Virus record (IMG/VR): IMGVR_UViG_3300009550_000031
Span: 1 to 36,555 of that record
From: a virus
DNA length: 36,555 bases
Reading direction: 5' to 3' (one strand)
Part shown: in pieces, positions 10,795 to 14,938 of the stretch
Position numbering within the stretch: position 1 is the first letter of the stretch
Layout of the letters: every line of letters begins with the position of its first letter
Position numbers and translations under genes: made by a program
Notes under the pieces: model-generated
Database searches by the model: none
The model's input: only the letters and a program-made list of their open reading frames with translations
What the model was told of the DNA's origin: nothing

Positions 10795-11214
10795 TCAATC
10801 TCTTAATGATTCTTTAAGGATTTCTGAGCCGCCTACTCTCACATTAATAATACCATTATAATAATCGTCTGTGAGTAATACTTTCCTTTCAAATTGTTCT
10901 TGTGCTTCTAAGTAACTAGCAACACCTCTACTTGGGCAAAAGTGTAAAATTTCTCTTAGAAAGTTATCTTCCCCTAATAATTCTACGTCTGCTTTTAAAT
11001 GATCGTTACTGCCCCAATAAGTTTTCCAGTCGCTTTCTTTTGTGCCACGTCTTTTATTCTTTTTTCCTTTTAAGGGCGGTTTGGTTGTTTTGAATTTTGC
11101 AAGTTTCTTACCTACGTATTTTCTATTATTTGTTTTGTTTGTAATAATATATACAAAGGCCTCACAGTCCTCAGGAAGTGCAGTTATTTCTTGTTTGTTA
11201 TGTAACCAAGTCAT
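10795..11214 (-). CDS. GIY-YIG endonuclease-like protein
   Basis: A 139-residue protein with a GIY-YIG nuclease pattern: FVYIITN...RKYVGKK at residues about 20-37 (standing in for GIY...YIG), a basic K/R-rich loop, KTYWGSN, and a later helix SYLEAQEQF whose Glu is in the position of the catalytic metal-binding Glu. Phage relatives include the Seg/Mob homing endonucleases of T4. No DNA-binding NUMOD region follows, so it is a minimal domain. The ATG directly abuts the stop of the gp51-like gene (TAA then ATG), so it is the last gene of the gp26 operon. Whether it is a free-standing homing enzyme or has been taken into phage biology is not clear from sequence. Confidence 0.65.
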   Translation of the reverse strand: MTWLHNKQEITALPEDCEAFVYIITNKTNNRKYVGKKLAKFKTTKPPLKGKKNKRRGTKESDWKTYWGSNDHLKADVELLGEDNFLREILHFCPSRGVASYLEAQEQFERKVLLTDDYYNGIINVRVGGSEILKESLRD

Positions 11215-11412
11215 TTATAAATCTTCTGTTACTGACTTTCCTGCTTTTTGCTTCATATAGTTTTCTAATGTTTTTGCAAGTAACTCTCTTTGAGGTCCAG
11301 ACATATACCATATCTCGTTCCATTGAATAGCACCTTGACTGTAAATTACTAGTTCTGTTAAACTTTTTTCTAGGGCGTCTGTTTCTTTTTTCAGCCTCCC
11401 AAGATATGCCAC
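11215..11412 (-). CDS. Baseplate hub assembly protein, gp51-like; possibly made as gp26 fusion
   Basis: A 65-residue, mostly alpha-helical protein (LKKETDALEKSLTELVIYS..., then a second helix RELLAKTLENYMKQKAGK). The gene position after gp26, and the resemblance to the short proteins called gp51 in marine T4-like phages, suggest a baseplate-hub assembly factor. As an independent gene it would have to use GTG at 11412 with only a weak GAAGAG before it. The same frame is open upstream for 12 further codons (H-R-F-L-A-Q-S-E-P-E-E-I) to the T TTT TTC heptamer near the gp26 end, so it may be translated mainly by -1 frameshifting as the C-terminal part of a 366-residue gp26-gp51 protein. The stop abuts the next start. 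Confidence 0.55.
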   Translation of the reverse strand: MAYLGRLKKETDALEKSLTELVIYSQGAIQWNEIWYMSGPQRELLAKTLENYMKQKAGKSVTEDL

Positions 11413-11435
11413 AATCTCTTCAGGCTCTGATTGAG

Positions 11436-12314
11436 CTAGGAAGCGGTGAAAAAATTTACTGGATTGAAGTTGACCTCACTTTCAAATACATATGGTTCTT
11501 CCGGTGAATTCACACATTCTTCATTGTCACATGAACTTTCCATGTTTCTAGTAATACCAATCTTTCCTATTTCTTCTATAAAGGTTGATATTTGATCTCC
11601 AATCTTTCTATCGCAATTTTCTAGGAACTCACGAATTTGAGAAATATCAGTAACTACAGTATTTTCTTCTTCACCTGCTATAGTAATACTACTAACACTA
11701 TCTACTAGCAATTCAAAGTTTAATTGTGCAAGTTCTAAAAAGTTTTCACTAAATGCTTGAACTCTTTCTAATTCGTCTGGTATGTCTGTAATAGATTGTA
11801 AACTTCTAGTACTTCTAAAATTTGCAATACCGGCCCTTACAGCAGATCTATAACTAAATGGTTGTAGTTTAATTAATAAACCACTTTCTGTAGTAAATTC
11901 GTAAGAGTCTTTTAATACAGACATTGTTGTTAAAACACCTTCAACACTTAAAATTTGCGTAACTTCTTTTTCACATTTATCACATTGTGCTGTAACTTCT
12001 ATATCATCTCCAAATGTGGCTCCTTGAATAGCAATAAGAATAGCATCTACATCATTGCTATAAAGTCTTGATGCATCTTTTACAGACGGTACGCAACTTT
12101 CTATTACTTGTATAACGGCGTCGCCATTAAGTAATGCGTCTGGGTTCTTCATTATAAGTTCATCTTTTGCAGTCATAGAAAAAACTGCATGTTCGTCTTT
12201 TGTGACATCTATAATGCTGTCATCATAGTAAGTACCGCCACTTGGTAATCCTGTATATAATCTTGGCGTTCTAAAATGTCCTGCTAGAGGATTTTTATTG
12301 TTTTGTTTTGCCAT
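11436..12314 (-). CDS. 26: Baseplate hub subunit/assembly protein gp26-like
   Basis: A 292-residue protein of the T4 baseplate gp26 type: N-terminal KNPLAGHFRTPRLYTGLPSGG motif region (about residues 7-27), a 'K-D-E-L-x-x-K-N-P-D-A-L' segment at about 50-62, and a long helical C-terminal half. T4 gp26 is shorter (208). Two cysteine pairs, CDKC in the middle and CDNEEC near the end, could bind zinc together. The start is supported by AGGAG upstream. First gene of a leftward late operon with the gp51-like and GIY-YIG genes. The heptamer at 11448-11454 precedes its TAG stop by three codons. Confidence 0.68.
   Translation of the reverse strand: MAKQNNKNPLAGHFRTPRLYTGLPSGGTYYDDSIIDVTKDEHAVFSMTAKDELIMKNPDALLNGDAVIQVIESCVPSVKDASRLYSNDVDAILIAIQGATFGDDIEVTAQCDKCEKEVTQILSVEGVLTTMSVLKDSYEFTTESGLLIKLQPFSYRSAVRAGIANFRSTRSLQSITDIPDELERVQAFSENFLELAQLNFELLVDSVSSITIAGEEENTVVTDISQIREFLENCDRKIGDQISTFIEEIGKIGITRNMESSCDNEECVNSPEEPYVFESEVNFNPVNFFTAS
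11448..11454 (-). promoter_or_regulatory. Candidate -1 ribosomal frameshift site T TTT TTC
   Basis: On the minus strand the last codons of gp26 read AAT TTT TTC ACC GCT TCC TAG. T TTT TTC fits the X XXY YYZ slippery rule in the gp26 frame (codons F288-F289). A -1 slip enters a frame that continues without a stop through 12 codons into the gp51-like protein, giving a 366-residue product. I did not identify a stimulatory stem or pseudoknot downstream. Confidence 0.6.
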
Positions 12315-12415: not shown

Positions 12416-14938
12416 ATGGCAGATACAACAGGAAATGAATTTGAGGCAGATATACAGGATCTGTCAGGCGGTGGTTCTCAGTATAAAGCAAAACTACCAG
12501 CATACGTTCTAGATAAAACACTTAGAGATGTTATGGAAGGCCTTGTAAAGGCAGTATCCGCCACGGGAAACGAAAATTCAAAAGGCTTACAAGAACTTGC
12601 GGAGAAATATAAGGAAGCATTAGAAGGCCAAACAGCCGAAACAACTGAAACAATTGAAGATGCGGAAGAAACAACTAGGCAAGTAATACAAACAGAAGAA
12701 GAAAAAACTAGGCAAAAGTTAGAGAAAGTTAGACAACAAGAAAAATCAGATAGAAAGAAAGAAATAGAAAAAACTGCCGCGGCAATACAAAGAGGTGCTG
12801 AAAAAGGTGGTAGAATAGGATCTGATTTACTTGTTTCAGCAGTTAAAGGATTAGCAGTTGTACTTGGTACAGCAGGTGGTGTATTAATAGGAAGTTTTGC
12901 TAACTTAGGAAATGGTTTAAGAACACTTACAGATCAAGGTCAGGCATTTGGAGATCAACTAGGCGTAGGTACTGCAAGTACTTTAGATAATATTATTGCA
13001 ATGAACCTAATGGGAATTACAACAGAACAATCTATAAGTATTTTAGCAGAATATTCTAGAGCAATGAGTACTATGGGTCAGCAAACTTTAATGAGATTAA
13101 ATCATTCATTCTTAGAAATGACTGACAATGGTTTAGCATTGGGTGTAGCACTTGATGAAGCGACAGAAATGTTTATGCAAGATCAACAATTTAGAGCCCG
13201 TACACTTAATAAAGACAGAATAGATACTAGTATTACTGCCCAACTGACAATGAAGAGCATACAAAATTTAAGGGGATTCTCCGCTATATTAGGACAAAGT
13301 ACAGATGCATTAAGACAAAGTTCAGAAGGTGTTATGGATGGTAATAAAGCATTCCAGGCATTTACAAATAGTTTAGATGCCAATTCTGCAACAAATATGA
13401 ATGCAGTTGCTAAAAACTTAGTTGAAGGATTAATAGCAGTATTCCCACAGTCCGGGGAAGACTTAGGTAATGCATTACTAAGTGTTGCTGGTACAGGTGT
13501 AGGTGCTATAAGTGATTTTGCAAATATGCTTATTCCTTTAGGGGGTAGCATTAGTACAGAATTCCAAGGTTTAGCAAGAAGATTAAGAGATGGTAGCATA
13601 GGAATAGATGAAGTACCTCAAGCAATTCAAGGCATTGTTAATGCGGCAAGTCTGAACCAAGATCAATTAGAGCAACTATCTGTTATAGCAGGATTAGAAG
13701 GACATCCTATGCAACAGGTTGCTGAAACTATTATAACCATGCAACAAGAAGCAAGTGTGGCCAGAGATAGATTGCAAAAACTTGCTGATGGTACAGGTAT
13801 GCAATTTGATGAAGTGCAAAGAACAACAGTAGGCTTTGAAAACATTATGAAAAGTGTTAAGGGAGGTTACAATGCTTTAATAAATTCTATACCTATAGAA
13901 ACAACAAAGGTATTAGGAAAGAATTTTGATGGATTAATTAGTGCATTTACAGGCAGAGGCGGTATAAGTGTTTTGAATACAGAACTACAAAGAGCAGGTA
14001 GAGAAATAGGTAAAGCAATTGGAGATACGCTCAATGACCTTGCTCCAGATGGCGATTACGGTAAAGTTATTAGAAACATAATAGACAAGATGATACAAGT
14101 CACCAAATACCTCACAGAGAAAGTAGGTAATGTTATAAAAGCATTGAATAATGAAGGCCAATTAGATATAGCCGGCGCAATTAGAACATTTATTGCTGAA
14201 ACGATAGGCTTTTTATTTACAGCCATAGGAGAAGCATTTCAATATATACCCTGGGGAACTGTCTTAAAACTTGGTGCCGTATATGTCTTGTTTACTACAC
14301 TTACTAGTGCGATAGGTGTCGCTTTTGCTATAGCGGCAATGAAAGCCGGAACGGCATTTCAAATGGCGGCCATGAGAGTTTCAGCAATGGGCGGCATGGG
14401 CGGTATGATGGGAAGAGTAGGAAAAGGTGTTGCCAGAGTTGCCGCACCAGTGGCGGCATTAGGTGGAGGCTTAATGTTAGCCAGTGATGTCGCACAGGGA
14501 GACTCAAGCGGAATGAAAGGCGGAGCCATAGGTGCTGGGTTAGGTCTGTTACTAGGAGCCGCATTGGCACCATTTACAGGTGGACTAAGTTTAGCGGCTG
14601 GTTTGGCTTATGCAGGAGGAGGCTATGCGGTTGGGTCAATGATGACCGGTGATGGTGGTAAAAAGAATAAAAACAGAACTCCACAACCAGCAACAGTTAC
14701 ATCTCCAAATTTAGCAGGTCCAACCACTTCTAGTTTAAGTACAAATTATTTAGATCAGATGACGAATCCTTCTAATAATCCTTCAAATTCAACAGTTATG
14801 TCTGCTAGAGAAATTAATAAATTAGATCGAACATCAGATGAAACTAAAGCATTAACATTATTACTTGCAGAAAATAAACGTTTGAACAAGCAAATTGCAC
14901 AAATGGTAGATGCTGGTCTTAAGGTAAAACAAGCCTAG
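12416..14938 (+). CDS. Probable tail tape-measure protein
   Basis: An 840-residue protein with the look of a tape-measure or tail-lumen protein: an N-terminal charged coiled coil (about 70-135, EETTRQVIQTEEEKTRQK...), hydrophobic segments at about 140-165, 615-640 and 690-745 (the last Gly/Ala-rich), long helical low-complexity middle regions rich in Gln, Ala and Gly, and a C-terminal coiled coil. Length exceeds T4 gp29 (590), and tape-measure length follows tail length. It lies opposite the gp26/gp51 hub genes, which fits the hub-centred role of gp29. I see no lytic domain. No strong ribosome-binding site precedes the ATG. Another large tail structural protein cannot be excluded. Confidence 0.55.
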   Translation: MADTTGNEFEADIQDLSGGGSQYKAKLPAYVLDKTLRDVMEGLVKAVSATGNENSKGLQELAEKYKEALEGQTAETTETIEDAEETTRQVIQTEEEKTRQKLEKVRQQEKSDRKKEIEKTAAAIQRGAEKGGRIGSDLLVSAVKGLAVVLGTAGGVLIGSFANLGNGLRTLTDQGQAFGDQLGVGTASTLDNIIAMNLMGITTEQSISILAEYSRAMSTMGQQTLMRLNHSFLEMTDNGLALGVALDEATEMFMQDQQFRARTLNKDRIDTSITAQLTMKSIQNLRGFSAILGQSTDALRQSSEGVMDGNKAFQAFTNSLDANSATNMNAVAKNLVEGLIAVFPQSGEDLGNALLSVAGTGVGAISDFANMLIPLGGSISTEFQGLARRLRDGSIGIDEVPQAIQGIVNAASLNQDQLEQLSVIAGLEGHPMQQVAETIITMQQEASVARDRLQKLADGTGMQFDEVQRTTVGFENIMKSVKGGYNALINSIPIETTKVLGKNFDGLISAFTGRGGISVLNTELQRAGREIGKAIGDTLNDLAPDGDYGKVIRNIIDKMIQVTKYLTEKVGNVIKALNNEGQLDIAGAIRTFIAETIGFLFTAIGEAFQYIPWGTVLKLGAVYVLFTTLTSAIGVAFAIAAMKAGTAFQMAAMRVSAMGGMGGMMGRVGKGVARVAAPVAALGGGLMLASDVAQGDSSGMKGGAIGAGLGLLLGAALAPFTGGLSLAAGLAYAGGGYAVGSMMTGDGGKKNKNRTPQPATVTSPNLAGPTTSSLSTNYLDQMTNPSNNPSNSTVMSAREINKLDRTSDETKALTLLLAENKRLNKQIAQMVDAGLKVKQA

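Follow-up and report, generated by a model that had tools for sequence, protein, structure and literature searches.

A putative programmed −1 frameshift links gp26 to a gp51-like extension in jumbo phages and other members of the T4 superfamily

Results

A gp26-like gene ends in a slippery sequence and continues into an open −1 frame

The window, by which we mean the whole stretch of DNA analyzed here, is the 36,555-base virus contig IMGVR_UViG_3300009550_000031, which has metagenomic viral-contig relatives of up to 75% protein identity. Among named phages it stands closest to jumbo phages of the Phosso, PA5oct, Atu_ph07, RaK2 and 121Q kinds, and it comes from a marine relative of the giant T4-type phages. 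The genes around the locus are those of a T4-superfamily structural region, with portal, head maturation protease, major capsid, late sigma factor and SbcCD-type (gp46/47) genes. Within this region we identified a gp26-like gene that matched Pfam family PF12322 (E 3.9e-16; 59.8 bits, above the curated cut-off of 24.5) and PHROG 150 (E 1.7e-19), and to which 36 loci in viral contigs are related. The features at this locus are the following:

11436–12314 (−): gp26-like gene, short form, 292 aa (Pfam PF12322 T4_baseplate / PHROG 150)
11448–11454 (−): slippery heptamer T_TTT_TTC, in phase with gp26 (seen in the sequence and in 129 junctions; codon-invariant in the window clade)
11451–11457 (−): second, overlapping heptamer A_AAT_TTT, also in phase (GTA AAT invariant in 16/16 distinct lineages of the window clade)
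11218–11454 (−): −1 frame extension of 79 codons, FFHRFLAQSEPEEIVAYLGR...KSVTEDL, with its TAA stop at 11215–11217 (open frame, linker selection, homology)
11410–11412 (−): GTG at codon 14, the only early start for a separate gp51-like ORF (seen in the sequence)
11394–11444 (−): predicted 3′ stem-loop, with an outer stem of GCTTCCTA and TGGGAGGC (fold prediction)

The gene ends CCA GTA AAT TTT TTC ACC GCT TCC TAG. A first-pass annotation of this DNA had noticed T TTT TTC in phase within the last gp26 codons, and we confirmed it at 11454–11448; together with the overlapping A_AAT_TTT, which had gone unremarked, it forms the decamer A_AAT_TTT_TTC (11448–11457), that is, two overlapping canonical −1 heptamers in tandem. 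The same annotation was right that no stop separates the −1 frame from the gp51-like frame, since the −1 frame, which reads FFHRFLAQSEPEEI-VAYLGR... from the heptamer, stays open until the TAA. It was also right that a GTG is the only start available to the gp51-like frame on its own, and that its ribosome-binding site is poor: no recognizable Shine-Dalgarno sequence was found before this GTG (11412–11410).

Two neighboring genes deserve mention in their own right. A SegE-type GIY-YIG endonuclease ORF (10795–11214, −) starts directly after the gp51 stop (TAAATG); some relatives of the window have it and others lack it, and the tag “NAD synthetase” that PHROG 447 gives to this family looks wrong. 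Divergent from gp26 lies the gene for an 840-aa protein (12416–14938, +), a candidate tape measure that had no significant PHROG match and that adjoins the portal gene, the same place as is occupied by “structural protein” genes in PA5oct (ESI-MS/MS), RaK2 and 121Q.

The slip site is conserved across 129 junctions and invariant at the codon level

Among window ORFs of at least 100 codons, only gp26 combines an XXXYYYZ heptamer in its last 20 codons with a −1 extension longer than 60 codons, the −1 extensions at other heptamer-bearing ORF ends reaching at most 27 codons past the stop. The single case in the window is weak evidence by itself, however, because about 10% of recodings of gp26 with its own codon usage yield T_TTT_TTC at the FF. 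We gathered gp26 relatives from IMG/VR and from isolate genomes. In 144 loci, T_TTT_TTY stands in phase and the −1 frame stays open beyond it; 129 of these loci are distinct, and they come from jumbo phages, marine phages and cyanophages of the T4 superfamily. The heptamer proposed from the window proved to be TTTTTTC in 127 of the 129 distinct junctions and TTTTTTT in the other two (HTVC008M and phiM12), with the −1 frame open in 129/129. The codon before the TTT of the heptamer is one of eight (AGT, AAT, TCT, GCT, GAT, CAT, TAT or CGT), the residue varying and the final T remaining constant, and FF elsewhere in the same gp26 genes is written TTT TTC in only 3/87 cases. SCTP-2 also carries the heptamer; its gene was missed by the PF12322 search and found with the jumbo profile.

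For a codon test we defined the window clade as 16 lineages differing by more than 3%. Its alignment contains 66 columns with an invariant degenerate residue, and the codon is invariant as well in only six of these: GTA AAT TTT TTC plus GCT TCC, at the very end of gp26, corresponding to the slip site and the stem arm next to it. The slip-site GTA is invariant even though valine elsewhere in the clade is encoded by GTT (140), GTA (122), GTG (46) and GTC (24). Since codon invariance is confined to these six columns, the constraint acts on the RNA, and it takes in the two tandem heptamers as well as the 5′ arm of the stem predicted there. We regard the conservation in 129 junctions, together with the exclusive codon invariance at the site, as decisive for a real signal at the level of sequence.

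A predicted RNA stem lies downstream of the slip site

In the window, the predicted stem begins at a spacing of 3 nt from T_TTT_TTC and of 6 nt from A_AAT_TTT, and has a minimum free energy of −16.1 kcal/mol; its z value is only −0.4, compared with −1.9 to −3.0 in relatives. The 5′ arm codons GCT TCC are invariant in the window clade, where GCTTCC pairs with a downstream arm of GGGAGGC- or GGAAGC-type, the position of which varies among members. When the 64 bases 3′ of the heptamer were compared with shuffles, taking the best of two offsets for each group, the mean z was −2.16 for 63 cyanophage-type and −1.63 for 33 jumbo-type sequences, and fold z at most other offsets was near zero, the exceptions being values of about −0.75 to −1.4 at −300, +100 and +220.

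RNAalifold found no shared structure in the full set of 59 cyano-type sequences, because subclades use different stems, and covariation was therefore analyzed in a subset of 39 cyanophage sequences picked for a common 3′ arm, a choice that favors that stem. In this subset an 11-bp stem begins 5 bases past the heptamer, is 93.5% paired vs. 26–47% when slid, and displays 17 double-change cells vs. 5.3 in shuffles. RaK2-, GAP32- and XaC1-type phages have little structure past the heptamer. The predicted stem is well supported in cyanophages and moderately supported in the window clade.

The linker codons before the GTG are under purifying selection

The codons that link gp26 to the gp51-like frame had been described as reading like real protein, and a lack of purifying selection on them had been named as grounds for rejecting the frameshift. 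Such selection is present: for the codons that run from the gp26 stop up to the GTG, pN/pS in the −1 frame is 0.26, compared with 1.59 (frame 0) and 2.12 (frame +1) in the other two. This argues that the linker codons upstream of the GTG are translated, which a GTG start would not achieve. The GTG itself is not conserved, being present in 5/16 lineages of the window clade. The 75-codon extension of PA5oct contains no ATG, GTG or TTG anywhere, and in other lineages the first start codon lies at codon 50 (L011, L022 and, as a TTG, L029) or at codon 32 (RaK2).

An ATG is found within 8 codons in 83/86 cyano-type junctions, just past the stop, yet the heptamer and stem are kept. In 11/81 sequences a Leu codon stands in place of the first cyanophage ATG; these sequences retain the heptamer and the frame, and most of them have another ATG three codons on. 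At cyanophage-type loci (L091–L170), the ATG a few codons past the gp26 stop sits inside the predicted stem. From such an ATG within the stem, a detached gp51 could be made in cyanophages as a third product.

The extension is linked through cyanophages to the C-terminal part of T4 gp51

T4 gp26 and T4 gp51 both belong to PF12322, and T4 gp51 exceeds gp26 by a C-terminal part, which falls within the region matched by PHROG 634 (“baseplate hub assembly catalyst”); a PHROG search of the window gave no PHROG 634 match. The predicted cyanophage frameshift product aligned with T4-type gp51 over 239 columns, through the junction (E 6e-17), and the cyanophage extension aligned with the T4 gp51 C-terminus (E 8e-10). 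The jumbo extension matched the cyanophage extension (E 1.2e-5) and reached only 14% probability when compared directly with T4; the gp51 label given in the first pass is nonetheless reasonable, since the cyanophage extensions link it to the T4 gp51 C-terminus.

We also built structure models of gp26 and of a natural fusion, T4-type gp51. In the latter (pLDDT 87), the C-terminal three helices, residues 209–250, correspond to the extension. When these two models were compared with the PDB by Foldseek, nothing matched significantly. The HK97 tail chaperone 2ob9_B was aligned at Z 5.0 and 3.9 Å over 97/104 residues, which is within noise; it ranked 41 among VIA-align rows that were middling and mostly unrelated. 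In a BFVD search with the gp51 model, the significant matches were annotated baseplate hub proteins or unnamed or uncharacterized ones.

Phages lacking the heptamer carry two gp26-family genes

Records searched whole showed one gp26-family gene in phages with the heptamer, and two in the T4 relatives and in L035 and L036, which lack it. The family has coding potential for short and long forms with a common N-terminal part in the frameshift phages, and separate paralogues for these forms in T4 relatives and L035. In the T4 relatives, gp26 ends TTC TTT or is without FF, and a fused gp51 is present. L035 (1888–3810) and L036, which are identical over the compared stretch and are the sole jumbo-type exceptions, have tandem long and short gp26-family genes, 42% identical, with no frameshift; the junction of the long gene reads GAA TAT TTT CGG GTT AGA in one frame, and the short gene has neither FF nor extension. 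The first-pass annotation had counted heptamer-less homologues with separate, well-started genes as evidence against a frameshift; what T4 relatives and L035/L036 have is a short gene with a complete in-frame short-plus-extension paralogue rather than a small gene standing on its own.

We built a tree from the domain that the long and short forms have in common. In it, the L035 long and short genes fell inside the jumbo clade, between lineages with the frameshift and well away from T4 gp26 and gp51. The well-supported branches of this tree force three label changes; its root, and hence the direction of change in the T4 half, is not fixed. On condition that the frameshift came first, the tree implies at least two independent replacements of it. 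It seems likely to us that the frameshift is a widespread, possibly ancestral state in the T4 superfamily, jumbo phages included, and that on at least two independent occasions a short and a fused long gene took its place. If so, these lineages are natural experiments on the need for two forms in a set ratio.

Aeh1 has been reported to lack gp51 (PMC3037559). In its genome (NC_005260.1, L217), gp26 (119001–119777, −) ends GAT TTT TTC GAC TGA, and gp51 is present as an unannotated 60-codon −1 extension. At 18 loci from Vi01 and its relatives, gp26 ends GAR ATT TTC ATT TAA, which is not a canonical heptamer; the −1 frame past this end is open, with few changes that seem mostly synonymous, and Vi01 has one gp26-family gene. 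This gp26 end, seen in Kuttervirus-type Ackermannviridae (L058, L181–L198), is a possible non-canonical shift site.

Discussion

The gp26–gp51 locus is, with high probability, a single tail-assembly-chaperone gene that is read in two ways, either by stopping at gp26 or by a −1 slip on A_AAT_TTT_TTC. From the site, the frame, the selection, the structural signal and the paralogue state, we infer that slipping occurs in cells, with an efficiency that would leave most ribosomes to terminate at the gp26 stop and yield the short form of 292 aa. The fraction that slipped would produce a long form of about 366 aa, adding a 77-residue, probably helical gp51 domain, and the stem-loop a few bases downstream would probably stimulate the slip. 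The tape-measure protein is the probable binding partner of the short form, and the extension of the long form probably recruits tail-tube or hub subunits, as in lambda G/GT. In T4 and its relatives, and in one jumbo-phage lineage, the slip site is absent and the two forms are encoded by separate paralogues (gp26 and gp51 in T4).

One could also suppose that gp51 is a separate small protein, made by re-initiation or from a start of its own (the GTG in the window, the ATG in cyanophages), and that the heptamer is incidental. This accords with its annotation as a gene in P-SSM2, KVP40, 121Q and others, and with the nearby ATG in most cyano-type junctions. We nevertheless consider it very unlikely, given that the PA5oct extension has no NTG and that in most of the window clade the first NTG comes late, the purifying selection on the linker before the GTG, the cyanophage sequences that lost the first ATG and retained the heptamer and frame (most with the ATG three codons on), and the fact that T4 gp51 and the L035 long form are fusions. 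Still less probable is a frame change brought about by RNA-polymerase slippage rather than ribosome slippage. The signal is indeed a T run, and is TTTTTTT in HTVC008M and phiM12, but six Ts are short for transcriptional slippage, the run keeps a fixed phase with respect to gp26, the T before the TTT belongs to a codon of changing identity, and the RNA stem stands at ribosomal spacing and covaries in cyanophages.

Because a single-base change would join both ORFs, the junction might in principle reflect an error in sequencing or assembly, or a fusion gene that has decayed, and no frameshift would then take place. The same junction occurs in 129 distinct sequences, among them the isolates P-SSM2, S-PM2, KVP40, RaK2 and PA5oct, and separately in Aeh1. 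We assign this reading a negligible probability and regard it as already refuted, because independent genomes carry the same junction. The programmed −1 frameshift fusing gp26 to a gp51-like protein, as the first-pass annotation had suggested, appears instead to be supported by conservation at the 129 junctions, codon invariance and linker selection. Its further suggestion, that the locus is an equivalent of the tail-chaperone slip device for a T4-type baseplate hub, stood with a refinement: the pair would be best seen as a tail-assembly-chaperone pair, and T4 itself has two genes and no frameshift.

A review of T4 describes gp26 and gp51 as hub assembly chaperones, with gp51 absent from the particle and gp26 disputed (PMC3004832). 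This literature, papers citing Vladimirov et al. 2022 and the analogy with lambda suggest that the pair probably acts as chaperone for the tape measure. Using PHROGs, the tape-measure gene of the window phage could not be assigned; long genes follow the gp26 locus in P-SSM2, Milchi, CC2 and others, none of them assignable as tape measure.

As cited by others, Vladimirov et al. 2022 treated tail-chaperone genes in T4-like phages, some of which have one short and one long fused gene (PMC10885494), and described poly-T −1 slippery signals in T4-like short-form genes (PMC12846349). Judging from these citations, that work very probably covers gp26/gp51, and the core idea for T4-like phages is thus very probably already published. 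In the openly accessible literature we found no report of the frameshift in jumbo phages. The jumbo and window lineages, the 3′ stem, the absent starts, the two-gene lineage of L035/L036 and the hidden gp51 of Aeh1 come from the present analysis, and may overlap with Vladimirov et al. 2022.

A tail-chaperone frameshift with a GTTTTT motif is known from Vandenendeviridae and Andersonviridae (PMC12846349). The likeness to the gp26 locus lies in a poly-T −1 site that is conserved close to where the short-form gene ends, an open −1 frame and annotation that misses the long form; these are, however, other phage families with another motif, and the likeness is one of features.

In lambda (G/GT), P2 and other phages with long tails, two overlapping ORFs give rise to a short and a −1-extended form of a tail protein, as is proposed for the gp26 locus. 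The slip site of lambda is G_GGA_AAG, whereas here it is a poly-T site with a predicted downstream stem, and no sequence relation between the gp26 locus and lambda G/GT was found. Neither the short nor the extended form of lambda is in the virion, and a 2016 review described T4 as the exception to the conservation of the frameshift in long-tailed phages (PMC5009743). T4 gp26 and gp51 are of the same family as the genes described here, and T4 gp51 is collinear with the cyanophage frameshift product; T4 differs in that its two genes lie on opposite strands and in that its gp26 ends GAG TTC TTT GAG, with the FF kept and the slip site gone. A shared frameshift would explain why cyanophage gp51 resembles a truncated fifth of T4 gp51, as well as the apparent lack of gp51 in Aeh1, and in many annotated genomes, where gp51 is listed as a separate gene or missed, the real product is probably the fusion. 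With the frameshift and the two-gene state exchanged repeatedly, the ratio of short to long form becomes a testable question, and an essential but obscure pair in T4 hub assembly would become a chaperone pair of the lambda type.
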